This document shows, piece by piece, positions 6,904 to 35,192 of a DNA stretch of 38,594 bases. Below the pieces are notes generated by a model. That model saw only the letters and a program-made list of their open reading frames with translations. It ran no database searches and was not told the DNA's origin. The stretch is from contig JAGBEA010000031.1 in the NCBI GenBank assembly GCA_017937195.1, positions 1 through 38,594 of the forward strand, given 5' to 3'. Made by a program: the position numbers and the translations under genes. The DNA comes from Oscillospiraceae bacterium. GTDB lineage: Bacteria > Bacillota > Clostridia > Oscillospirales > Oscillospiraceae. Positions within the stretch are counted from its first letter, which is position 1; each line of letters starts with the position of its first letter.

Positions 6904-6984
6904 TCTTTGCGGCGAAATTTTTCTTTACAATGGGAGGGGGAGTTGATATAATACCTTGGTACGGATTTGAAAACTGTATCATAT

Positions 6985-7061
6985 GTGCCCGTAGCTCAGT
7001 TGGATAGAGCGTCAGACTCCGACTCTGAAGGCCGCTGGTTCGAATCCAGTCGGGCATACCA
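6985..7061 (+). tRNA. tRNA-Arg (anticodon CCG)
   Basis: A complete 77-nt cloverleaf: acceptor GTGCCCG with CGGGCAT (one G-U pair at the end), D arm GCTCAGTTGGATAGAGC, anticodon stem TCAGA/TCTGA around loop CTCCGAC giving anticodon CCG, T arm with GGTTCGAATCC, discriminator A and an encoded CCA. Confidence 0.95.
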
Positions 7062-7258
7062 AAAAGCTGACCCCAAAAGGGTTGGCTTTTTTGTTTTGGA
7101 GAATTGGCAAACCGGCGGCCTTCAGGTGCGAAGCACGTCAAATCCGCCGGAGGCTGCCCAGTGCACAGCACCGTCGGCAGGCCGCTGGTTCGAATCCAGT
7201 CGGGCATACCAAAAAGCTGACCCTCTGAAAGGGTTGGTTTTTTTGTTTTGGAGAATTG
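7029..7258 (+). repeat. Partial tandem duplication of the tRNA-Arg 3' half plus terminator
   Basis: The unit at 7029-7106 (from the variable loop through the T arm, CCA, terminator and GAGAATTG) recurs at 7179-7258, offset by 150 bp. The first 45 bases are identical and the terminator differs slightly. The DNA between (7107-7178) holds a CCGGCGG...CCGCCGG inverted repeat and an 11-nt reverse-complement copy of tRNA bases 7025-7035 at 7115-7125. The second copy lacks acceptor 5', D and anticodon arms, so it is not a functional tRNA. Confidence 0.88.
7064..7092 (+). terminator. Terminator of tRNA-Arg
   Basis: AAGCTGACCC / GGGTTGGCTT (two G-U pairs) with a short A-rich loop, ending in a T run. 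Confidence 0.8.
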
Positions 7259-7284
7259 ATGTGTGTGATAAATGGTGCTATACT
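7256..7284 (+). promoter_or_regulatory. Promoter of the PNPOx-like gene
   Basis: TTGATG (7256-7261), 17-bp spacer, TATACT (7279-7284), 35 nt before the ATG at 7319. Its -35 box overlaps the end of the duplicated tRNA-terminator unit. Confidence 0.68.
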
Positions 7285-7318
7285 TGATTATAGGTTAATT
7301 TGGGGGAGAAGAATAGAT

Positions 7319-7687
7319 ATGAGCGAGGCATATGAATTTCTGAAAGAGTGCGAGGCGTTCTTTGTTTTGACCATCAACGGCGATTATCCTGCCGGCAGAC
7401 CTTTTGGGGCGGTAATGGAGGTGGGGGATGATCTGTACATCTCCACCAATGATATGAATCAGGCGCATCAGCAGCTGCGAAAGCACGATAAGATTCAGAT
7501 CGTGGCCAAGAAGCCGGCATCGCGGGAATGGATCCGCATCACCGGCCTCGCCGAGGAGTGTACGGATGAGAATCTGCGGCAAAAGATGGTGGCGGAGCGG
7601 CCCTTCCTGCAGCAGCGCTTTGGTGCCATCGGAATGGAGCATTTCATTCTGTTTAAGGTGAAAGTGGAGAATGTAGAGATCAAGTAA
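7319..7687 (+). CDS. Pyridoxamine 5'-phosphate oxidase family (FMN-binding split barrel) protein
   Basis: 122 residues from the ATG at 7319, chosen because GGGGGAGA lies about 10 bases upstream; the frame is open further left but runs into the tRNA repeat. The sequence has split-barrel features: FFVLTINGDYPAGRPFGAVMEV (shown here only as a landmark, near residues 13-34), DDLYISTND, and ASREWIRITGLAEE. Small proteins of this type bind FMN or F420-like cofactors or haem and include nitroreductase-like and general stress proteins; the substrate here is unknown. It is monocistronic, between its own promoter and terminator. Confidence 0.8.
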   Translation: MSEAYEFLKECEAFFVLTINGDYPAGRPFGAVMEVGDDLYISTNDMNQAHQQLRKHDKIQIVAKKPASREWIRITGLAEECTDENLRQKMVAERPFLQQRFGAIGMEHFILFKVKVENVEIK

Positions 7688-7691
7688 AGAG

Positions 7692-7726
7692 ACACCGGAG
7701 AAGCAAATGATTCTCCGGTGTTTTTT
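7692..7726 (+). terminator. Terminator of the PNPOx-like gene
   Basis: ACACCGGAGAA / TTCTCCGGTGT with a short loop, then TTTTTT. Confidence 0.9.
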
Positions 7727-14906: not shown

Positions 14907-14935
14907 TTGATTTTGTGCTTCGCCAGCCTTATAAT
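14907..14935 (+). promoter_or_regulatory. Promoter of the CARF-nuclease-like gene
   Basis: TTGATT (14907-14912), 17-bp spacer, perfect TATAAT (14930-14935), 27 nt before the ATG. Confidence 0.78.
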
Positions 14936-14962
14936 AAATACAATATAGAAAGGCGGGAGTCT

Positions 14963-16141
14963 ATGGAAACTTTAATTGAACTGTACGATGAGCGCGCAAT
15001 AGAAAATATTCTGGCGCCAGAGATGTTCCGTCCCAAGCGCGTGGTTTATCTCTGCCCCGGTGAAATTGCCCAGAACCGAAAGCGGCAGGATGCGTTGAGA
15101 GCCTTCTTTCAGAATCGAGGTTGGGATCCGGAGCTGATTTTTATGGAGACCAGTCTTTTCAAGTCCGACCGGATCCTCCGTCAGCTGGTTTCCGTCAGCG
15201 AAAAATACCCTGACTGCGCCGTAGATGTTACCGGCGGCAGTGATGCTGCGCTTTTTGCTGCGGGAATGTTTTCTGCGCAGACGGGTGCGCCTGCCTTTAC
15301 CTACTCCAGAAAGAAGAATTGCTTTTATGATATCAGCGGCGCTGCATTTGCAGACAATGTGAATTGCACACTGTCCTATTCTGTAGACGACTTTTTCCGT
15401 ATGGCGGGCGGAACGCTGCTGCCCGGCCGCGTGGATAATGAGGTGCTGGCCTCGTATTTTGCTGACTTTGACCCATTTTTCGCCTGCTTCCTGCGTTTCC
15501 GCCGCAAGTGGACGGATATCATCTCCTATATTCAAAAGGTGTCGCCGTCCGAAGAAGGGCAGATCCCTCCGTTAGCCATTCAGGGGAAATACACGGTGAA
15601 GGGCGACTTCGGCTCGAGAAAGTCCGCCAATAAGGCGGCGCTGGAAGCGCTTGCTGACATTGATTTCCTCCGCGAGCTGAAGATCGTGCCCGGCGAGTCG
15701 GTGGCTTTTCGCTTCCGTGACGCTAACATCCGCTTCTGGCTGCGGGATGTGGGCAGCGTATTGGAACTGTACGTCTATAAAGCCTGCGTCGATACCGGTA
15801 TTTTTAATGACGTGATCAGCAGTGCTGTCGTTCGCTGGGATGATACCGTGGGACACGGCAGCGTCTCCAATGAGATCGATGTGATGGCATCGCGCGGTGT
15901 TGTTCCGCTGTTTATCAGCTGCAAAGCCACGGATATCAAGACCGAGTCACTCAATGAGCTGGCGATCCTGCGTGACCGTTTCGGCGGGAAAGGCGCGAAG
16001 GCCGCCATTGTTACCACCGAGTTCTGCAGCGCCGCAGCGCGTCACCGTGCCGCCCAGCTGGAGATCGCAGTGATCGATCTGGAAGAATTGCGGGATCACA
16101 AGCTGGTGGAGCGGCTGAAAACCATTATGAAGGCACCGTAA
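14963..16141 (+). CDS. DUF1887 / Card1-like CARF-nuclease family protein, not linked to CRISPR here
   Basis: 392 residues. The N-terminal Rossmann-like part (about 1-145) has VDVTGGSDAALFAAG at 88-102, the D-x-TGG loop of CARF domains that bind cyclic oligoadenylates. A middle winged-helix-like region follows. The C-terminal PD-(D/E)xK-like domain has SVLELYVY (265-272), NEIDVMAS with Asp306, and LFISCKA with Lys321. From memory, Card1 has D-x13-E-x-K; here Ser319 takes the place of the Glu, so cleavage may be weak or lost. Known relatives (VC1899, Card1) are type III CRISPR accessory nucleases, but this window has no array and no cas gene. Monocistronic with its own promoter. AGGCGGGAG precedes the ATG. 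Confidence 0.82.
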   Translation: METLIELYDERAIENILAPEMFRPKRVVYLCPGEIAQNRKRQDALRAFFQNRGWDPELIFMETSLFKSDRILRQLVSVSEKYPDCAVDVTGGSDAALFAAGMFSAQTGAPAFTYSRKKNCFYDISGAAFADNVNCTLSYSVDDFFRMAGGTLLPGRVDNEVLASYFADFDPFFACFLRFRRKWTDIISYIQKVSPSEEGQIPPLAIQGKYTVKGDFGSRKSANKAALEALADIDFLRELKIVPGESVAFRFRDANIRFWLRDVGSVLELYVYKACVDTGIFNDVISSAVVRWDDTVGHGSVSNEIDVMASRGVVPLFISCKATDIKTESLNELAILRDRFGGKGAKAAIVTTEFCSAAARHRAAQLEIAVIDLEELRDHKLVERLKTIMKAP

Positions 16142-19561: not shown

Positions 19562-20148
19562 TGTACAACACCTCTTTTGTAAATTTTGAAAAGACATTCC
19601 ACATTCATCAAAGAACTTGAAATGACTAAATGTACAATAATTGCATTTAACACAGTATACCACGGACGGAGCGGTTAGCCAACACCAAAATGCAGAAAAT
19701 CTCAACAAACTTCTGCTTTTTTTCGAGGTAATATTTGGGCGGTCAAGGCCAAAAGCGGAAAATAAAGGGAGGAAGCGGCACAGAATTGCGGCAGCTGACA
19801 CATATGAAACGGTTCAACAATCTAAAAAACGATGTGTGGATATGAATCATGCTATAGACGGTTTGGGGACCGTATGCAGATGCGCTTTGACCGGCGATGA
19901 TGCCAAGGCTGTGTGAAACGTCTGCAGCGGAAGAACTCGGCGTGAGTGAGACCGGTAAAATCGGGGACTCTTTTACAAAAAAGAAGTGCGACCGATTGAG
20001 GCGTTCTCCTTTTGCGCCTTTAGCAGAATTTTTTTGTGATCCGGCGGGAAAAGTGATTGGAAATGCTGGAGTTTAGCCCGCGGCTGTGGTATATTGAAAG
20101 CAAAAGTACTTGGTCAATTGTGGCAAATTGCAGTCTGCGAGGTATGCT
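19562..20148. other. 587-nt stretch without a recognised gene
   Basis: I see short open frames only: one of 91 codons from 19641 on the plus strand and one of about 57 codons at roughly 19897-20073. Neither has a ribosome site or a recognisable motif. An imperfect dyad AAATG-(TA)-CAAT-A-ATTG-CATTT at 19628-19648 lies about 70 nt upstream of guaB and could be an operator. A TGG-TATATT extended -10 near 20088-20096 may serve the next gene. The middle may be a gene relic. Confidence 0.5.
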
Positions 20149-23100
20149 ATGAGCAATAAGAAGCCCCAAAATGAAATACTGCGCCGTGTATTGCGGCAGG
20201 ATCCGGTGCCGTCTGCAGCGCGCCTGCTGTGCGATGGGCAGAAAATGGATGTATTGGATGGACTCTGCGGTCACGACAGCGCACTGTGCAGCAAGGTGCT
20301 GGCGATCATCGCCCCCGTTATGGAGCAAGTGCCTGCCGACCAGCATCTGTGGCTGGATCAGCTGCGTCAGCGCTTGGTGGACAATCTGTTCCCCGATGCT
20401 GAGCATTGCCGCAAAGAGCTGTCGCGGGATGAAACGGTCTTTCTGCGCGTGCTGGATGCTGCCTTGCAGTGGAATCTTGAGAAGGCGGATCCGCTGCGCG
20501 ATCTGCTGCAGCTAGATGCTGATGCGATGACGGACAGCCGTGTGGAGCATCAGTACCACCGGTTCCAAAGAGCAACGGCAGAGGCACATATTATGCCGCT
20601 GCTGCGCCTCAGCCGGGAGTTGACTCCCTTCGATCTGGAGGGGCATACCATCGGCGTGCATAATGTGGCGCTGCATACGGCGATGATGGCTGTGAAGGCC
20701 GGCTTGCAGGTGGATCTGCCGCTGGTCAGCGCTGCTGCATTCGGTCACGATATCGGTAAATTCGGCTGCCGCGGTGACGATCAGCGCCGTGTACCGTATC
20801 TGCATTATTATTTCACTTGGCAGTGGTTTATCGATCAAGGGATGGAGGAGATCGGCTATATCTCCGCCAACCACTCCACTTGGGATCTGGAATTTGAGAA
20901 TCTGCCGGTGGAGTCGCTGCTGCTGATCTATGCCGACTTCCGTGTCCGCGGCAGCCGCGGCGCAGACGGCAGGGAGGAGATCGGAATCTGCTCGTTGGAC
21001 GAGGCGTATGAGTGCATTTTGTCCAAGCTGGCGGACGTTACCCCCGAGAAGAAGCAGCGCTACCAGACCGTTTATTATAAGCTGCGAGACTTCGAGCGTC
21101 TGCTGCGCAGCCTCGGTGTGCCGCTGGAACTGCAGGAAAATGAGCTGCATAGCGCAGATGCGCGCGATTACTCTCTGCTTTCGGCGGAGGAGGCGCTGCA
21201 GGCGCTGCGCCATATGGCTCTGCGCGGCTCGATGAAGCTGATGCGCACCATCAGCACTGCCCAATCTTTTGAGCTGCTGCTGGAGCAGGCAAAGGGCGAA
21301 AAGAATCTGCAGAGGATCCGCACCTACCTCCAGCTGTTCGAGGAATACAGCACCTATATGACGGTGTCCAACAAGAAAAAGACGCTGCGTCTGCTGTATG
21401 AGCTGTTGATGCACACCGATGGCGATGTGCGCCGCATTGCCGGACAGATTATGGGCCGCATTCTGGCCAACAGCGGGCTGAAGAACCGCAAGGAGCGTCC
21501 CTTGGGCGCACGCCGTGATGTGATGATCCCCACGGTGGCAGCGATGCTGGACGAATCTGTGGAGCTGTGGGAATACTATATGGATCAGTGCCTGCATCCC
21601 GACCATAAGATCTCCTACCGCCATGCACAGCGCATTTCCAACAGCCTGAAAACGGTGTGCGGCGCGCTGTTTGCCCATTGCGAGGCGAAGGAGGCCAAGC
21701 GCTTTGTGCTGCCGCTGCTGCGCCGTCTGTACGATGCCAAGGATGGAGACCGCTTTGTACTGGTGGATGCGCTGACCGCGCTGCCGTATGAGTATATTCC
21801 CTCCGAAGAAATCGACAAAGTGGTAGACGCGTTGGGCGCAATGCTGCCCGACGGCGATACGCCGCTGCGCCTGCGCGTGCTGCGCTGCTTTGAAAAAATG
21901 CATGCCAACAGCGCTTTCGTATGTAAAGTGGAAGAGGTTGCCAACGCTTTCAACACAGTTGATTGCGAGGACAGCGCGCTGGTAGACTATATGCGCCGTC
22001 GTGCAATGGGTGAGCGCAATGACGTGCTGGATGAAAACGGCGCATCCAATATCTATCTGAGCAATCTGAAGTCCGCCGTTCACTGGACGGTGAAGCTGGC
22101 GCATATCGATATGCTCTGCGATCAGGTGCGCGCCCATCCGGAAACGGCGCTGCATACGGCGATGCACCTCTCCAATGTGCTGTCCGTCAGTGAGCATTAT
22201 CCCGTCCGTCAGTCGGCAGGTGAGCACCTGCTGGAGATCGTGCTGCTGTTGCCTGCGCACCACATCAATGAGATTGCCGTGGATCTGATGCGTGAGCTGG
22301 AGGGCGGTCAGGATCAGATCTCCCATATGCTGGCGCCCTTCCTGGGACGGCTGCTTTGTATGCTGCCGGAGAAGGAACTGCTGGAGTCCATCGCATTTCT
22401 TGAGGGCTTGATCCGCAGCTCTGCGGTGCGCCCTGCCCGCGTGGCGCTGAAATCTATGGGCGAGATCCTCAACATCCTGCCCGAAGATAATCACGAGATG
22501 ATCGACTACGCGCTGGGACTGCTGATGAGCGGCATCAGCCACTATGAGCCGACCATCCATCAAAGCGCACTGGCAGTTTTGTGCCGCGATGTGCTGGGCA
22601 GCGAGCGGATCTCGCTGGAGCATCGCGCGCAGCTGTTCTGCCGGCTGCATAAGAAGCTGCTGACGGTGCTGTCTGAGCCCCGTGAGGGTCAGCTGACCTT
22701 CTTTAACAGCGCAGCTATGCTGAACCATCTGTACCGCTTTATCGTGCAATACGAGGTGCAGTGCGGCGCGTTCGCGTTCCCGGCACCCAAGCCTGCCGCC
22801 TTTTTCCCCGGCACCTTTGACCCCTTCTCCGTCGGTCATAAGCAGATCGTGGAGGAGATCCGCAAGCTGGGCTATGAGGTGTATCTGGCCATCGATGAGT
22901 TCTCCTGGTCGAAGATGCCCCTGCCCAAGCTACTGCGCCGCCAGATCGTGGAGATCTCGGTGGCAGATCAGTGGGATACCTATCTGTTCCCCGACGATAT
23001 CCCCATCAACATCGCAATGCCGGAGGATCTGGCAACGCTGCGCGGCTATCTCAGCGACCGTCCGCTGTATCTGGTGGCAGGCAGCGATGTGATCGAACAC

Positions 23101-24831
23101 GCCTCCGCCTATCACAGCGATGCCCCCGGCAGCGCAGCGGAGTATAACCATATCATCTTCTGCCGCAACACGGAGGGGCAGGCAGATCCCACGGCACTTC
23201 GTAAGAAAATCCGCGGTGATTTGAAGCTGCTGTCCCTGCCGCCTTTCTTTGAGTCGGTCAGCTCCACCCGTATCCGTGAGTTCATTGACCTGAAGCTGGA
23301 TATTTCTATGCTGGTCGATCCGGTGGTGCAGGCGCTGATCTACCGCTACGGTCTGTATGTCCGCGCACCGGAACTGAAAAATATGCTGACGCTGCAGGAT
23401 GTGTATTTCCGTCTGATCCGCGAGCGGCATCCGGATCTGCCCTCTGAACTGAATGATACCATCGCCTCTGCGGCAAAGCCCTGGGCGGTGGCGCTGTGCG
23501 CCCGACCCGATTCTATTCTCGGCTGGGCGGTGGGTCACACGCTGCAGGCTTCGGAGCTGTACGATGTGCTGCACTCTATTGAAGCTGCCAAATATGTGCG
23601 CCGCTACGCCTCGGGTCATATTCTGATGATCCGCTCGGTGGAGCTGGGCGGTGAGCGCACGGCGGAGAACTGCCGTATGCTGCTCAACGAGCTGCTGGCA
23701 CGGAGCCTGAATAACGACCACACCTATGCGCTGTGCCGCTGCGCGCCGGAGGATACGGCGCTGCGTGATGCGCTGCAGCAGCTGGGCTTTGTGGGCGTCG
23801 CCAGCTGCGAGGATATCTTCTATGTGGATATGCGTGCGCCGGTGATGCTGCTGCAGGACGTGCTGCTGCGGCTGAAGCAGCCCCACCAGAGCAACGAAAC
23901 AGTAAAACGCGCCGTGATGGCGAGCCGCCCCAGATTGCGCGGCGCATTGAACCGGATGTTCCCCGGTCAGTTGGTGTTGTGCTTCGACTCCGAGATGCTG
24001 AATCAGGCGCTGATGGAGCGTGTGCAGCGCATCAACGGCGTGGAGGATGTGCCGGCAGGCGTGCGCCGTCTGGGTCCGTATATGTGCGTGCCCTACGGCA
24101 AGATCCTTTCCAACGAGGTGGTGCCCAATACGGTCACCAAGACGCTGCGCGCCGAAAAGCGGTTCAGCGTGGATGCCGACAGCTTTGAGGTGGTGGAGTA
24201 TCCCGGCTATTCGCCCTTGAAAAATCAGGTGCGCACGCTGAAATCCTTCCGCCGCCCCGTGATCCTTGTGGATGACCTGCTGCATAAGGGCTACCGCATT
24301 GAGAAACTGGATCGCGTGCTGCGCGACGAAGGTCTCACTACCGGTCGTATCGTGGTGGCGGTGATGTCCGGCTACGGGCAGGATTTGATGCGCGTGCAGG
24401 GGCGTCAGGCGGAATGTGAGTATTTCATTCCCAACCTGCGTTACTGGTTCACCGAGAGCCTGCTGTATCCCTTCATCGGCGGTGACAGCATCGGTGAGCG
24501 CGGTATGACCGAGCATATGCTGCCGTCTGTCAATCTGGTGCTGCCGTACTATTATCCCCATTTTATCTCCGATGTGGCAGATACGGATATCCGCCAGTTC
24601 AGTCGCGTAGCATTGGAGAATGCGCTGGAGATCATGCACACGCTGGAGCGCCAGCATCAGCAGATTTTCAACACCACGCTGACCATCCGCCGTCTGGGCG
24701 AGGCGCTGCAGCAGCCGCGCCTGCCGGATAAGGGCGAGTGTATGAAATACGATATGAACCTGCCTGCCTCCGCGTATCTGGAGGAGGATCTGCGCCGGAT
24801 CCAGCGGATCTGCCGCAGTGAGAAGGAGTAA
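20149..24831 (+). CDS. Giant fusion: HD domain, helical repeats, NadD-like nucleotidyltransferase, GNAT-like and PRTase-like domains (1560 aa)
   Basis: Residues 160-300 form an HD-type domain: GHTIGVHNVALHTAMM, then AAAFGHDIGKFG (His200-Asp201), as in metal-dependent phosphohydrolases. About 380-870 is Leu-rich alpha-helical, HEAT-like. About 885-1070 is a nucleotidyltransferase: PGTFDPFSVGH (GTFDP...H motif, about 888-897), LYLVAGSDVIEHASAY, and SSTRIREFI (about 1038), all hallmarks of nicotinate-mononucleotide adenylyltransferase. About 1080-1245 looks GNAT-like. VILVDDLLHKGYRI (about 1371) resembles a PRPP-binding loop. No signal or membrane segment is seen. GAGG precedes the ATG at 20149. 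It is followed after 2 nt by a dehydrogenase-like gene. The domains are read by eye; the overall function is not known to me. Confidence 0.82.
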   Translation: MSNKKPQNEILRRVLRQDPVPSAARLLCDGQKMDVLDGLCGHDSALCSKVLAIIAPVMEQVPADQHLWLDQLRQRLVDNLFPDAEHCRKELSRDETVFLRVLDAALQWNLEKADPLRDLLQLDADAMTDSRVEHQYHRFQRATAEAHIMPLLRLSRELTPFDLEGHTIGVHNVALHTAMMAVKAGLQVDLPLVSAAAFGHDIGKFGCRGDDQRRVPYLHYYFTWQWFIDQGMEEIGYISANHSTWDLEFENLPVESLLLIYADFRVRGSRGADGREEIGICSLDEAYECILSKLADVTPEKKQRYQTVYYKLRDFERLLRSLGVPLELQENELHSADARDYSLLSAEEALQALRHMALRGSMKLMRTISTAQSFELLLEQAKGEKNLQRIRTYLQLFEEYSTYMTVSNKKKTLRLLYELLMHTDGDVRRIAGQIMGRILANSGLKNRKERPLGARRDVMIPTVAAMLDESVELWEYYMDQCLHPDHKISYRHAQRISNSLKTVCGALFAHCEAKEAKRFVLPLLRRLYDAKDGDRFVLVDALTALPYEYIPSEEIDKVVDALGAMLPDGDTPLRLRVLRCFEKMHANSAFVCKVEEVANAFNTVDCEDSALVDYMRRRAMGERNDVLDENGASNIYLSNLKSAVHWTVKLAHIDMLCDQVRAHPETALHTAMHLSNVLSVSEHYPVRQSAGEHLLEIVLLLPAHHINEIAVDLMRELEGGQDQISHMLAPFLGRLLCMLPEKELLESIAFLEGLIRSSAVRPARVALKSMGEILNILPEDNHEMIDYALGLLMSGISHYEPTIHQSALAVLCRDVLGSERISLEHRAQLFCRLHKKLLTVLSEPREGQLTFFNSAAMLNHLYRFIVQYEVQCGAFAFPAPKPAAFFPGTFDPFSVGHKQIVEEIRKLGYEVYLAIDEFSWSKMPLPKLLRRQIVEISVADQWDTYLFPDDIPINIAMPEDLATLRGYLSDRPLYLVAGSDVIEHASAYHSDAPGSAAEYNHIIFCRNTEGQADPTALRKKIRGDLKLLSLPPFFESVSSTRIREFIDLKLDISMLVDPVVQALIYRYGLYVRAPELKNMLTLQDVYFRLIRERHPDLPSELNDTIASAAKPWAVALCARPDSILGWAVGHTLQASELYDVLHSIEAAKYVRRYASGHILMIRSVELGGERTAENCRMLLNELLARSLNNDHTYALCRCAPEDTALRDALQQLGFVGVASCEDIFYVDMRAPVMLLQDVLLRLKQPHQSNETVKRAVMASRPRLRGALNRMFPGQLVLCFDSEMLNQALMERVQRINGVEDVPAGVRRLGPYMCVPYGKILSNEVVPNTVTKTLRAEKRFSVDADSFEVVEYPGYSPLKNQVRTLKSFRRPVILVDDLLHKGYRIEKLDRVLRDEGLTTGRIVVAVMSGYGQDLMRVQGRQAECEYFIPNLRYWFTESLLYPFIGGDSIGERGMTEHMLPSVNLVLPYYYPHFISDVADTDIRQFSRVALENALEIMHTLERQHQQIFNTTLTIRRLGEALQQPRLPDKGECMKYDMNLPASAYLEEDLRRIQRICRSEKE

Positions 24832-24833
24832 CC

Positions 24834-26066
24834 ATGCAATTCAAACGATGGAATGATATCTGCCTTTGCGCAGAGCGTGATCTGTTTCCTGCCGATGCAG
24901 TATCGGTGGAGCAGCCCTTTGCGCCGCTGGTGTTTTTGGTGCACCGCGATGGCAAGACCTGCCGCGGACTCTATGCCGTATCCAGCTTGCAGGAGGTGGG
25001 GGAGGAGGAATCTCTCCGCTGCCTGCTGCCGGTGGCTGACAGCGATGAGGATACGGAACTGTCCCGATTTGTTGCAAAAAACGGAGCAACTGTGCTGAAT
25101 ACCGCATTTCAAAACGGCTTTTCTGTGCTGCAGCAGTACCTCACCCCCAAACGCGGCGGCTACCGCGTCACGCTGGTGGGCTTGGGCGATGTGGGCGGCA
25201 CGGTACTGACCGGCTTGAAGCTGTTGGGACACGAGATCGACGAGATCGCCATCTTCGATCCCAATACGGCGCTGTGTGACCGCTATGAGATGGAGCTGAA
25301 TCAGGTGCTGCAGGCAGAGGATGGCAAACCGCTGCCCCGCGTCACGGTCTGCAGGGAAGAGTCCCTCTTTGACTGCGATCTCTTCATCTTCACTGCCACA
25401 AGAGGCGTACCGCCTCTGGGTACGCAGGTGCGGGATGTGCGGATGGCGCAGTTTGATGCCAACCGCGCAATGCTGGAAGCCTATGCGCTGAAGGCGCGGC
25501 AGGCGCAGTTCAAAGGCCTCTTCTGTCAGGTCAGCGATCCGGTGGATCACTTGGCGCGCGCCGTGTTCCTGCGCTCCAACTGCGATGACAGCGGTGCGTT
25601 TGATGGATGCGGTCTGCTGCCGGAGCAGGTGCAAGGCTTCGGCCTTGGCGTGATGGCAGCGCGTGCCGCTTATTACGCGGGTAAAGAGGGCGTGGACTTT
25701 TCCCAAGGCCGCGCCTACGGCCCACACGGTCAGGGACTGGTCGTGGCAAATTGCCCCGATGATGGGTATGATGACGCGCTGTCCTGCCGCTTGACGGAGC
25801 TGACCGGCACCGCCAATCTCCGTGTGCGCGACTTGGGCTTCAAGCCCTACATCGCACCGGGACTTTCCTCGGCTGCTGTGTCCATTCTGCGGCTGCTGCG
25901 CGGCGAAGATCACTACGGCGCTGTGCCGCTGAACGGCGTGTATTTCGGCTGCACCAGCCGTATGACGTGGCAAGGAATTAAACTTTACAGAGAATCTATT
26001 TGCAATGAATTGCTGAAACGATTGGAGGAAACGCACCACCAGCTGCGTGCGTTTGACTACACATGA
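24834..26066 (+). CDS. Lactate/malate dehydrogenase-like protein with N-terminal extension
   Basis: 410 residues. Residues 1-108 are a domain I do not recognise. From 111 an LDH/MDH fold follows: VTLVGLGDVGGTVL (Gly116, 118, 121) for the dinucleotide, IAIFDPN (Asp142 at the end of beta-2, favouring NAD), DLFIFTATRGVPP, QVSDPVDHLARAVFLRS in place of NPVD...K, and GRAYGPHGQG with catalytic-type His298 (LDH has GEHG). Conservation at the catalytic points argues for an active 2-hydroxyacid-type dehydrogenase, but the substrate loop (ATRGVPPLGTQVRD) differs from LDH and MDH. The ribosome site AAGGAG lies inside the preceding gene's last codons, and its stop overlaps the next start. Confidence 0.8.
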   Translation: MQFKRWNDICLCAERDLFPADAVSVEQPFAPLVFLVHRDGKTCRGLYAVSSLQEVGEEESLRCLLPVADSDEDTELSRFVAKNGATVLNTAFQNGFSVLQQYLTPKRGGYRVTLVGLGDVGGTVLTGLKLLGHEIDEIAIFDPNTALCDRYEMELNQVLQAEDGKPLPRVTVCREESLFDCDLFIFTATRGVPPLGTQVRDVRMAQFDANRAMLEAYALKARQAQFKGLFCQVSDPVDHLARAVFLRSNCDDSGAFDGCGLLPEQVQGFGLGVMAARAAYYAGKEGVDFSQGRAYGPHGQGLVVANCPDDGYDDALSCRLTELTGTANLRVRDLGFKPYIAPGLSSAAVSILRLLRGEDHYGAVPLNGVYFGCTSRMTWQGIKLYRESICNELLKRLEETHHQLRAFDYT

Positions 26067-27115
26067 GGAATGAGCAGATCTATGTGGTGCGCATCGGCGG
26101 CGGTGAGCGGTTAACGCGCTTGCTGCAAACGGCGCTGGAGGGCACTGCGTCACAATCGATCTCCATTGATGCGCTGGGCCAAGGGCTGCGCGACGCCGCG
26201 ATCCTCTTTGCGGTGGGCGTGGATGCACTGGGCGTCAGCGAGGAGTTTCTGCGCCTTTTGCGGCTGCTGCGGCAGAATAACGGCTGCCTGCGGGGCAGCA
26301 TCGCCGGCATTGTGGTGGACGGGGAGAGTGAGCTGTATTCCAAGTCTGCGGCGCAAGAGCTGGCGCTGGCTGCCAATATGGCAGGCTGCACGTTCCTTGG
26401 TAAGTCGCTGGTGGAGGGCACGGGCTCTCTATATAATCAGCACATTTTGGCGCAGCGGATGAATCGCTCGTGGGAGGATACCTATTTTCTCCGCGCAAAA
26501 GAGCTGGTACAGCGCCTGCTGACCCATCAGCCCAAGAAATTCGACGCCCCGAAGCTCTTGATGCTGCACGCATCGGATCACCGGTTGTCCAATACGGTGT
26601 GGCTGGGCAGGGAACTGGTGCGCCGCCTGCCGGAAAGTTTTGCGGCGCAGGAAATCTCACTGCAAAACGGAACGATTCAGGATTGCCGCGGCTGCTCCTA
26701 TGCCGCGTGCCTCCACTATGCCGAGAACAATACCTGCTTTTATGGCGGCACGATTCCGGAGGAGGTGCTGCCGGCCATCCGCAGCTGTGATGCGCTGTTA
26801 CTGTTGTGCCCCAATTATAACGACTCCGTCAGTGCCAATATGATGGCGCTGTTCAACCGGATGACCAATCTGCTGGTGCAGCAGGAGCTGCTGGATAAAT
26901 ACCTATTCAGCGTGGTGGTGTCCGGTTATTCCGGCAGCGATCTGGTGGCGCGCCAACTGCTGGGTACGCTGTGCTTCAATAAAACGGTGACGCTGCCGGG
27001 CAATTTCTGTATGCTGGAAACAGCACACGACCCCGGCGCAGCCCAACAGCTGCAGGGGATCGGTGACCGGCTGGACGCCTTTGCCGCTCATATGGTGGAT
27101 ATACTGCAAAAATGA
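26063..27115 (+). CDS. Flavodoxin-fold NAD(P)H-dependent FMN reductase-like protein
   Basis: 350 residues in two parts. Residues 1-155 may be a degenerate Rossmann or flavodoxin-like unit. From about 163 an FMN reductase fold begins (KLLMLHASDHRLSNTVWLG), with DCRGCSYAACLHY and NNTCFY (Cys208, 211, 216, 225) and LLLLCPNYNDSVSANMMALFNRM, the FMN-contact loop. The Cys pattern is that of NADPH-dependent oxidoreductases and iron-sulfur flavoproteins, so a cluster or redox thiols are possible. ATGA overlap with the preceding gene shows tight coupling. Third and last gene of the operon; an electron-transfer partner for the LDH-like protein is a reasonable guess. Confidence 0.8.
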   Translation: MRNEQIYVVRIGGGERLTRLLQTALEGTASQSISIDALGQGLRDAAILFAVGVDALGVSEEFLRLLRLLRQNNGCLRGSIAGIVVDGESELYSKSAAQELALAANMAGCTFLGKSLVEGTGSLYNQHILAQRMNRSWEDTYFLRAKELVQRLLTHQPKKFDAPKLLMLHASDHRLSNTVWLGRELVRRLPESFAAQEISLQNGTIQDCRGCSYAACLHYAENNTCFYGGTIPEEVLPAIRSCDALLLLCPNYNDSVSANMMALFNRMTNLLVQQELLDKYLFSVVVSGYSGSDLVARQLLGTLCFNKTVTLPGNFCMLETAHDPGAAQQLQGIGDRLDAFAAHMVDILQK

Positions 27116-27150
27116 AAGTGACGCAGAGGAGTTCCTCTGCGCCGCTTTTT
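27115..27150. terminator. Bidirectional terminator between the three-gene operon and spoIIP
   Basis: AAAGTG-a-CGCAGAGG / CCTCTGCG-c-CGCTTT with an AGTT loop, then TTTTTT. It overlaps the end of the plus-strand operon and the stop of spoIIP. Confidence 0.85.
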
Positions 27151-28378: not shown

Positions 28379-28429
28379 ATAAACACCAAGTGAATAGCAA
28401 TGTAAGGCGGCAATTTGCTGCCGTACGAT

Positions 28430-28495
28430 GCTCATATAGCTTCGCTGTTTTGGTGCGAAGGTTTCTACGGGACCGCCTGAGGTCCGGCTATGGGT
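28430..28495 (+). ncRNA. Purine riboswitch aptamer, guanine type
   Basis: P1 CTCATA (28431-28436) pairs with TATGGG (28489-28494). P2 is CTTCGC/GCGAAG, the J2/3 core is GTTTCTAC, and P3 is GGACC/GGTCC. L2 (GG) and L3 (CC) can form the loop-loop contact. J3/1 reads GGCTATG, with C at the position that pairs with the ligand, predicting guanine (or hypoxanthine) rather than adenine. A hairpin (28406-28422) precedes the aptamer. Downstream, CTCTTT (28522-28527) can pair with the ribosome site AAAGGAG (28540-28546), so translational control is possible; no convincing intrinsic terminator was found. Confidence 0.87.
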
Positions 28496-28552
28496 GTTCT
28501 GCTGTGATGTGCGGCAGAGCGCTCTTTTTGCTTTTTGGGAAAGGAGAAGCAT

Positions 28553-29842
28553 ATGCGTGAGGTTTTGAAAGGCAACATCGTCCACGCGCCGTCGTTGGGC
28601 GTGTTGGAAACAGTAGAAAACGGCTATCTGGTGCTGGATGACGGGAAAATTGCGGGTATTTATAAGGAATTACCGGCAGATTGTGCCCATCTCCCGTGCC
28701 ACGATTACGGTGACCGCATTATTATGCAGTCCTTCGCCGATATGCATCTTCACGCGCCCCAGTACCCGATGCTGGGGATGGGGATGGATCTGCCGCTGAT
28801 GGATTGGCTGAGCACCTACACCTTCCGCACGGAAGCGCGCTTTGCCGATACGGAGTATGCCCGTCGCACCTACCGTCGCTTGGCGGAGGAGCTGATTCGC
28901 AACGGCACCACCCGCGTCTGTATGTTCTCCTCGCTGCACGTGGAGGCCACGTGGATATTGATGGAGGAATTGGAGCGGGTGGGCATCACCGGCTATGTGG
29001 GCAAGGTCAATATGGATCGTAACGCGCTGCCCGGCGTTTTGGAGGAGACCACCGAGGAGTCACTGCGGGAAACGCTGCGCTGGCTGGACGGCTGCCGCAG
29101 TGAGACGGTCAAGCCGATCCTGACGCCGCGCTTTACCCCCTCGTGCAGCGATGTGCTGATGGAGCAGCTGGGCGTATTGGCGCAGGAACGGGGACTCTAT
29201 GTCCAGTCGCACCTCTCGGAAAGCGCCGGCGAGATCGAGCTGGTGCAGCGGCTGCATCCGTCGCTAAGCTACTGGCAGACCTATGAGAAGAGCGGACTTT
29301 GGCGTGACCATACGCTGATGGCGCACTGCGTCCACAGCGACGCGCAGGAGCGCCGCGCTATGAAGGATCGGGGTGTCGTGGTGGTACACTGCGCCGACTC
29401 CAATGTCAATATTTGCTCCGGCGTCTGTCCGGTGCGGCTGATGCTGGACGAGGGGCTGTGGGTCACGCTTGGCTCCGATATTGCCGGCGGCGCGCAGCTG
29501 CCGATGTATCAGGTGATCACTGCCACCATCCGCGCGTCCAAGGCACGGCGCGTGCTGGACGGTTGGAACAGTGACTTTTTGACCGAGGCGGAGGCGTATT
29601 ATCTGGGCACAACGGCAGGTCACCGCTATTTTGGCGCGGGTAACGGCTTTGCTGTGGGCGATGCGCTGCACGCTGTGGTGCTGGATGACAGCGAATTCCC
29701 CGAGCCTGCCCGCGAACTGTCGGTGCAGGAGCGCTTTGAGCGTGCGCTCTATCTGATGCAGCGCCGCCACGTTACCGATGTCTGGTCGCAGGGAAAATGT
29801 GTGGTAAAAAATGGCGCGGTGATTGCAAACGCTGCTATTTGA
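28553..29842 (+). CDS. guaD: Guanine deaminase
   Basis: 429 residues from the ATG at 28553 (AAAGGAGAA upstream; an upstream in-frame ATG at 28535 lies inside the riboswitch leader). The amidohydrolase barrel has Zn ligands in DMHLHAPQ (HxH), QSHLSES, MAHCVHSD and LGSDIAGG (Asp). FADMHLHAPQYP and the GSDIAGG form match guanine deaminases rather than other chlorohydrolase-like enzymes. It converts guanine to xanthine and ammonia. A guanine-type riboswitch in its leader supports the assignment and suggests induction by substrate. Confidence 0.93.
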   Translation: MREVLKGNIVHAPSLGVLETVENGYLVLDDGKIAGIYKELPADCAHLPCHDYGDRIIMQSFADMHLHAPQYPMLGMGMDLPLMDWLSTYTFRTEARFADTEYARRTYRRLAEELIRNGTTRVCMFSSLHVEATWILMEELERVGITGYVGKVNMDRNALPGVLEETTEESLRETLRWLDGCRSETVKPILTPRFTPSCSDVLMEQLGVLAQERGLYVQSHLSESAGEIELVQRLHPSLSYWQTYEKSGLWRDHTLMAHCVHSDAQERRAMKDRGVVVVHCADSNVNICSGVCPVRLMLDEGLWVTLGSDIAGGAQLPMYQVITATIRASKARRVLDGWNSDFLTEAEAYYLGTTAGHRYFGAGNGFAVGDALHAVVLDDSEFPEPARELSVQERFERALYLMQRRHVTDVWSQGKCVVKNGAVIANAAI

Positions 29843-35005: not shown

Positions 35006-35070
35006 ATGCACATCAACTGAATATCCCGCAGATCTGCTTAGAATTCAATGAAAACTGAGTGGGGAGGGGA

Positions 35071-35148
35071 CTCTGGAGAATCCCATTCATTTGGGTGCCG
35101 AAGGTGCAAGGCTGCGTGCAGCCGAATCTCTCAGGCAAAAGGACGGAG
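35071..35148 (+). ncRNA. Glycine riboswitch (single aptamer)
   Basis: The conserved elements appear in order: CTCTGGAGA (P1 5' side), GGGTGCCGAAGGTGCAA, then GAATCTCTCAGGCAAAAGGA and CGGAG closing P1 with CTCTG. Only one aptamer is visible. The G-rich ggggagggga before it may be a ghost-aptamer or linker stem. An intrinsic terminator follows at 35193-35225 and the gene is an alanine/glycine symporter, so control by transcription attenuation in response to glycine is expected. Confidence 0.9.
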
Positions 35149-35192
35149 CGGTGCATTTTTTTGTGTGGAAGTGTGCCATACTGTGTTCTCCG

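Follow-up and report, generated by a model that had tools for sequence, protein, structure and literature searches.

A giant nucleotidyltransferase-HD protein encoded with two redox-type proteins in Clostridia: a possible nucleotidylation system associated with glutamate dehydrogenase

In a 38,594-nucleotide (nt) stretch of DNA from an Oscillospiraceae bacterium (contig JAGBEA010000031.1 of assembly GCA_017937195.1; hereafter, the window), we analyzed an operon of three genes. They encode a giant multi-domain protein, a protein with the fold of lactate and malate dehydrogenases (LDH/MDH), here called D, and a protein with the fold of flavin mononucleotide (FMN) reductases, here called F. This three-gene unit is common in gut and sediment Clostridia and seemingly undescribed, and it is statistically associated with glutamate dehydrogenase. 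The catalytic motifs of the HD domain and of the nucleotidyltransferase (NT) domain of the giant are intact, as judged by sequence. By analogy with NadD-YqeK, the unit might be a synthesis-plus-hydrolysis machine for a dinucleotide resembling nicotinamide adenine dinucleotide (NAD) or for a nucleotidylated target, serving glutamate metabolism. We give this reading a probability of about one in three. The model libraries that we searched recognize only single domains of the unit. No description of the whole system was found in these libraries or in the open-access literature searched; the word undescribed is thus provisional.

Results

Layout of the operon

All three genes lie on the plus strand and form a tight operon. 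The reading frame of the giant opens with TTG at 20110, has an ATG at 20149 and ends with its stop at 24831. D begins with ATG at 24834, 2 nt past that stop, with an AAGGAG-like site upstream, and the ATG of F at 26063 overlaps the end of D (26066) as ATGA. This layout and its coordinates had been proposed in a preliminary description made from the sequence alone, and they were confirmed. The motifs quoted there (GHDIGK, GTFDP...H, SSTRIREF, VDDLLHKG, GxGxxG and GPHG) were all present in the translations, and the catalytic HD and NT residues were found in 95 of 95 giants. The features of the operon are as follows.

20149-24831 (+): giant multi-domain protein, 1560 amino acids (aa) from the ATG; frame open from the TTG at 20110; aligned with its relatives as one of 95 giants
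20536-21138 (+): HD domain, about aa 130-330 (Pfam HD); candidate ligands H166, H200, D201, H219, H242 and D263
21166-22758 (+): HEAT-repeat region, about aa 340-870 (Pfam HEAT in relatives)
22798-23373 (+): NadD-type NT domain, about aa 884-1075 (PF01467, structure 5llt, hhalign)
23401-23853 (+): possible GNAT-like region, about aa 1085-1235 (one weak hhalign match)
23866-24828 (+): phosphoribosyltransferase (PRTase)-like region, about aa 1240-1560, with the loop VDDLLHKGYR (weak PF00156 and hhalign matches)
24834-26066 (+): LDH/MDH-fold protein D, 410 aa (Ldh_1_N, structure 6j9s)
26063-27115 (+): FMN-reductase-fold protein F, 350 aa (FMN_red); four invariant Cys and one His in the FMN_red half
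27122-27141 (+): terminator-like hairpin with a T run, 6 nt past the third gene (consensus scan only)

The hairpin is weak evidence by itself because the region has 12 such sites against 6.5 expected. A search of Rfam at the operon start matched no regulatory RNA, either in the window or in L023, L035, L043 and L063. Antisense reading frames that overlie the three genes formed several clusters (one of them in 24 groups) and were set aside by eye.

Conservation and linkage of the three genes

Loci were surveyed in species-representative genomes by one pattern scan, which yielded at least 553 stretches encoding a relative. The best 80 of these at least 553 stretches were used; their titles were of Clostridia type, and many came from gut metagenomes. 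Full-length giants were found in three of 295 genomes of the same order and in eight of 398 genomes of a phylum sample, the window's own being counted both times.

Linkage of the three genes across genomes, which the preliminary description had put forward as a check, was borne out by the gene neighborhoods. Among 83 loci searched with tblastn, 69 had at least 2600 nt downstream of the giant (the window included). In 62 of these 69 loci, D was encoded in the same orientation and no more than 700 nt away; F was found within 3500 nt in 63. L017 and L046 have D somewhat farther off (883 and 748 nt); a PhzF-like frame, labeled by eye, lies between the giant and D in L017 (14620-15500), in this one genome. 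Thirteen genomes that lacked D or F at the locus, or whose contig ended there, were probed. A proper D was present in 10, a contig-end fragment in one (G740) and none in two; the corresponding numbers for F were nine, one weak partial match (again G740) and three. The genomes of L040, L042, L058 and L079 have D and F adjacent to each other and away from the giant, the genome of L067 has F elsewhere and that of L072 has neither.

The pairwise distances of the three proteins correlate with each other (0.93, 0.93 and 0.89; 51 loci). When the 95 giants were sorted into 32 groups (>60% identity), D clustered with the giant in 32 of 32 groups and F in 31. The three proteins probably cooperate, perhaps as one complex.

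Some single loci deserve mention. A 2.6-Mb record of Acetoanaerobium noterae filed as a plasmid (NZ_CP154629.1, L166) carries the whole three-gene unit; it is probably a chromosome. Around the D-F pairs in the gut genomes of L040 and L042, F has a 4-nt overlap with a dihydrofolate-reductase-like gene (L151, 11113-11116; L152, 11120-11123), and a carB-like gene precedes D by 154 nt in L152 and by about 4 kb in L151. L151 also has an ADP-ribosylglycohydrolase-like frame (6908-7717, +) about 0.8 kb upstream of D, in one genome. These three labels were assigned by eye.

Association with glutamate dehydrogenase

Glutamate dehydrogenase was found near the giant in eight of 95 giants, which belong to seven of the 32 groups; it is the one other low-copy gene that recurs across lineages. 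The preliminary description could not have seen this link because it lies outside the window. At seven loci of six groups, no more than about 370 bp separates glutamate dehydrogenase from the operon. The gene is divergent at a distance of 272-366 bp in L035, L039 and L053 and runs in the same direction, about 80-100 bp away, in L020 and L022; in L010, a locus with two copies, it converges on F at about 330 bp, and L009 has a divergent tandem pair at about 260-300 bp. At the eighth locus, L063, it lies about 4 kb downstream. All eight copies tested scored over the cut-off of NCBIfam NF006929. A rough Poisson estimate, which ignores kinship and assumes 1.35 glutamate dehydrogenase copies in 2.6 Mb, gives a chance expectation of 0.24 groups near the giant and 0.06 groups as immediate neighbor.

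We also compared whole genomes. Of 60 operon genomes, 54 had a glutamate dehydrogenase that scored over the cut-off; in a phylum sample, 113 of 396 genomes did. This comparison is not corrected for kinship, and its operon genomes, taken from the best matches of a single scan, cluster by lineage. The 398-genome phylum sample surveyed above had eight operon genomes, six of which are among these 113. Copies scoring 625-706 bits were present in 43 of 60 operon genomes and 10 of 396 genomes of the phylum sample (four of the 10 being operon genomes), with the band picked after viewing the tables and the counts made by hand. At most four candidates per genome were scored in the phylum sample and all candidates in the operon genomes, so second copies in the background may be missed.

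Two copies were compared with solved structures. The copy of L039, from the 625-706-bit class, was nearest to 1bgv, 1k89 and 1aup (604-598 bits; 1aup is named NAD-specific) and scored 528 bits against an NADP-specific enzyme; a high-scoring copy, that of L022, was nearest to an NADP-specific enzyme. NAD-type glutamate dehydrogenases serve glutamate breakdown. Tandem glutamate dehydrogenase pairs of two score classes were seen in seven operon genomes (G071, G687, G689, G714, G724, G727 and G730).

Other recurring neighbors, mostly labeled by eye, were ABC ATPases (five groups), DegV-like (five), asparagine-synthetase-like, pyrB-like and MATE-like genes (four each). Counts of four or five groups were taken to be near noise, and some of these families are multi-copy. 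An IMPDH-like neighbor occurred at eight loci from only three groups. A role in sporulation was considered and rejected, as a SpoIIP-like gene clustered at only four of the loci.

Domains of the giant protein

The domain folds of the giant were assigned from Pfam, PDB-sequence and hhalign profiles, that is, from sequence alone. The profile alignments contained 65 of 74 candidate rows for the C-terminal half of the giant, 54 of 78 for the N-terminal half, 48 of 53 for D and 57 of 62 for F; the rows left out were loci from one genome search, plus others for size. In the window giant alone, the cytidylyltransferase-like family PF01467 was the sole Pfam domain over its cut-off, and HD remained below it (E 0.07). 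At E 0.1 in the relatives, HD was matched in 27 of 54 N-terminal halves (best 8e-6), HEAT in 28 of 54, between the HD and NT domains (best 6e-5), and PF01467 in all 65 C-terminal halves.

The NT profile matched NadD and CoaD structures in the PDB, the best NadD being 5llt (E 4.7e-6). In hhalign, nine ordinary NadDs were matched at 93-97% probability and the CoaD of the same genome at 95%. The earlier assignment of a NadD-type nucleotidyltransferase holds in this respect, but the giants depart from NadD at its HxGH motif. At position 894, the first His of the motif is replaced by Ser in 79 giants and by Thr in 16; the Gly has become Ser in 52 and is retained in 43, and the final His (H897) is kept in all 95. 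The curated NadD cut-off of TIGR00482 (112 bits) was not reached by the window giant (27.5 bits) or by its relatives (at most 60.7 bits over positions 2-194).

The PRTase-like assignment is weak. PF00156 was matched at E 0.1 in only 11 of 65 C-terminal halves (best E 0.016), and the loop diverges from the DD..[TS]xG phosphoribosyl pyrophosphate (PRPP) loop: D1375 is found in 94, D1376 in 92, H1379 in 91, G1381 in 92 and R1383 in 94 of the 95 giants, with His in place of T/S in 91. Among eight PRTases of the same genome, the best hhalign match to this part had E 6e-4 and 28.5% probability and fell at the PRPP loop. Two more gave E 0.005 and 0.011, two lay at 0.04-0.07 and three were background; the best of 12 non-PRTase controls gave E 0.072. 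For the GNAT-like region, one of seven GNATs of the same genome gave an alignment of 113 positions at E 0.002 and 13% probability and six were background, and no Pfam GNAT family was matched among the 65 C-terminal halves at E 0.1. No RNA-binding domain was matched in the model-library scans of the window proteins and the giant halves.

Active-site residues of the giant protein

Residues were counted in the alignment of 95 giants, the window's included. In the HD region, H166, H200, D201, G203, K204, H219, H242, W245, D246 and D263 are identical in all 95. The ligand order H..HD..H..H..D is therefore invariant, and the H..HD..D metal-ligand set (H166, H200, D201 and D263) is complete. In a study of YqeK (PMC8177086), two extra His residues between HD and D are assigned to a second metal. 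H219 and H242 of the giant may bind a second metal in the same way.

In the NT region, P887, G888, D891, H897, D916, S919, W920, K922, R930, G978, D980 and V981 are identical in 95 of 95. Of the SSTxIR motif, S1038, S1039 and R1043 are likewise invariant, with T/S at 1040 and I/L at 1042 throughout.

The partner proteins D and F

In D, Pfam Ldh_1_N was matched at E 0.1 in 43 of 48 members (best 6e-8), and L-LDH structures were matched in the PDB (6j9s, E 1.6e-8). The LDH/MDH-like dehydrogenase of the preliminary description is thus right as to fold, but two of the usual catalytic residues are absent. When D was aligned to an LDH-like protein of a host genome (L147), SDPVD fell over the NPxD site and Met274 over the catalytic Asp, and Arg203, Arg277 and His298 took the places of the two Arg and the His that are usual in the LDH active site; the alignment was forced past the Rossmann half and is less sure there. 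In 58 of 58 D proteins, the His and both Arg are kept, the catalytic Asp is replaced by Met and the Asn of NPVD by Asp. D keeps a Rossmann NAD-type site, has a rewired catalytic site and lacks the normal L-LDH/MDH residue set. D also has about 105 extra aa at its N-terminus.

F of the window scored 54.5 bits with FMN_red (cut-off 24), and this domain was matched at E 0.1 in all 57 members. C208, C211, C216, H218 and C225 are invariant in 66 of 66 sequences, and the Cys spacing is CX2CX4CX8C; F may hold a 4Fe-4S cluster. F has an extra N-terminal part of 150 aa, and its profile found no relative at E 0.1 among solved structures.

An ordinary NadD beside the giant

An ordinary nadD was found in the genome of the window (over cut-off, 141 bits) and in every one of the 48 operon genomes that were probed, out of the 80 loci, in keeping with the earlier proposal of a dedicated system beside housekeeping nadD. 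Four host nadD frames were scanned, including that of the window's genome, and all four scored over the cut-offs of both NadD and YqeK (TIGR00488), i.e. they are NadD-YqeK fusions. Therefore, a NadD-type and an HD domain are joined a second time in the giant, in a chain of different build. YqeK fused to NadD is described as proofreading NAD synthesis in a mycoplasma study (PMC9426524). The system was not classed as NadD, YqeK or LDH because one defining test of each gave a negative result.

Discussion

Proposed function

The giant repeats the NadD-YqeK pairing in another arrangement and is statistically tied to glutamate dehydrogenase; for these reasons, we favor a machine for dinucleotide synthesis or repair, or for nucleotidylation, that serves glutamate metabolism. 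In the giant, a NadD-type NT domain would be paired, on a HEAT scaffold, with a two-metal HD phosphohydrolase of YqeK-like pattern. As in NadD-YqeK, the NT domain would transfer adenosine monophosphate (AMP), or another nucleoside monophosphate (NMP), to a phosphorylated acceptor, and the HD domain would hydrolyze the same kind of bond for proofreading, repair or as an on/off switch. The PRTase-like region may provide the ribose-5-phosphate partner or detect it. D, with its LDH fold, and F, with its Cys-rich flavodoxin fold, could carry out or sense redox chemistry of the dinucleotide or its target. Such a system would serve NAD-linked glutamate metabolism in fermenting Clostridia. We infer the complex, its cofactors, the NAD-like substrate and the role. 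The more specific version, a new nucleotidylation machine in which the giant and two redox subunits make, repair or read an NAD-like dinucleotide or nucleotidylate a protein, controlling glutamate dehydrogenase flux in amino-acid-fermenting Clostridia, is proposed a little more tentatively still. The interpretation in the preliminary description survives as a linked three-gene system with a separate nadD and HD and NT motifs that are intact by sequence; an NAD-like product is still a proposal, the PRTase loop is divergent, the GNAT-like region is tentative and D lacks the normal LDH catalytic residues.

Several results weigh against the proposed function. No glutamate dehydrogenase was found in the flanking stretch examined of 87 of the 95 giants, the window's included, and 11 loci that were added later had none nearby. 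In six of the 60 operon genomes, no glutamate dehydrogenase reached the cut-off; one of these six has only fragments, which lie at contig ends. The HD profile of the giant matched the YqeK part of the nadD frames at only 0.2-1.1% hhalign probability, which is not significant, and an unrelated LDH control outscored YqeK (4.8%). Judged from the NadD motifs, the pyridine-pocket residues of NadD seem to be replaced in the giant, and the acceptor may thus be something other than a pyridine nucleotide. In addition, the PRTase-like loop seems closest to those of type I enzymes and not to that of nicotinate PRTase, and purine-type PRTases of the same genome ranked first.

Alternative explanations

The unit might instead synthesize a new cofactor or metabolite linked to a nucleotide, as an assembly line in which the PRTase joins a base to ribose-5-phosphate, the NT domain adds AMP, the HD domain trims and D and F reduce or oxidize. 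The set and order of domains suit this idea. The neighborhood survey of the 95 giants found no exporter, resistance gene or cofactor-using enzyme recurring near the operon, which suits an internal cofactor better than an exported product; however, the same result means that no user enzyme travels with the operon, and the PRTase and GNAT assignments are weak. We regard this explanation as rather unlikely, at something over one chance in five.

Slightly less likely again is a regulator like GlnD, in which a protein held by the HEAT region, either glutamate dehydrogenase or some other enzyme of nitrogen metabolism, would be nucleotidylated by the NT domain and freed of the group by the HD domain, with the redox-type proteins acting as sensors. 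The large HEAT region would suit a protein target, and the adjacency and co-occurrence of glutamate dehydrogenase fit as well, as do the asparagine-synthetase-like neighbors in four of 32 groups (labeled by eye, with a count near the noise of the survey). On the other hand, NadD-type enzymes use small phosphates, the NT domain of GlnD has another fold, and only eight of 95 giants have glutamate dehydrogenase in the flanking stretch examined.

An RNA- or tRNA-modifying complex, with HEAT repeats binding RNA, the HD, NT and PRTase-like parts acting on ends or ribose and the redox proteins as partners, would account for a stand-alone operon without partner genes and for the large HEAT scaffold. 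It is improbable, given that no RNA-binding domain was matched, and it leaves the glutamate dehydrogenase link unexplained. A phage-defense or mobile-element system, which the patchy distribution (3/295 and 8/398 genomes) might suggest, is very improbable: PADLOC models matched none of the three window proteins at E 0.5, none of the 57 viral-contig stretches that fit the search pattern encodes a relative, the PRTase-like part had no match in phages, the one plasmid-collection match is a 2.6-Mb record and the three proteins co-vary.

If dinucleotide control or repair tied to glutamate dehydrogenase is indeed the function, the operon would represent a new layer in the metabolism of NAD or nitrogen. 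It would also open to testing the physiology of amino-acid fermenters and of gut Oscillospiraceae, which have been little studied.

Other features of the window

Three further features were observed on the plus strand. A purine riboswitch aptamer (28412-28510) lies directly upstream of an amidohydrolase gene (28535-29842), a glycine riboswitch (35063-35156) overlaps the start of a sodium:alanine symporter frame, and the protein encoded at 14915-16138 has a Card1-like endonuclease domain (PF09002, 26.9 bits; cut-off 26.4).

Comparison with known systems

Ter-linked PRTase systems have been proposed as producers of a nucleoside-like metabolite. They resemble the operon in having a PRTase, here only a PRTase-like region, in a multi-gene nucleotide context; they differ in that no Ter gene was noticed among the recurring neighbors of the operon, with no search aimed at Ter. 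F shares the FMN_red domain and a compact Cys cluster with NADPH-dependent FMN reductases and the iron-sulfur flavoprotein Isf, but differs in the spacing of its Cys residues, its N-terminal extension and the lack of a solved relative at E 0.1. D has the fold, the NAD-binding Asp and the active-site Arg, Arg and His of L-lactate/malate dehydrogenases; unlike them, it has SDPVD for NPVD, Met for the catalytic Asp (58/58) and the N-terminal extra part.

GlnD is a uridylyltransferase/uridylyl-removing enzyme. Like GlnD, the giant would combine an NMP-adding domain and an NMP-removing HD domain in one chain, in a context of nitrogen metabolism. The NT fold of GlnD is another one, no ACT domain was matched in the giant, and the HEAT and PRTase-like parts belong to the giant.

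The NadD-YqeK fusion differs from the giant in the order of its domains, which is reversed in the giant with HEAT repeats between them. The giant also has the additional GNAT-like and PRTase-like regions and two linked redox-type genes, it occurs besides the ordinary enzyme, and its HD domain has no significant profile match to YqeK. Nevertheless, both have a NadD-type NT domain and an HD hydrolase in one chain, and both have the H..HD..H..H..D pattern.

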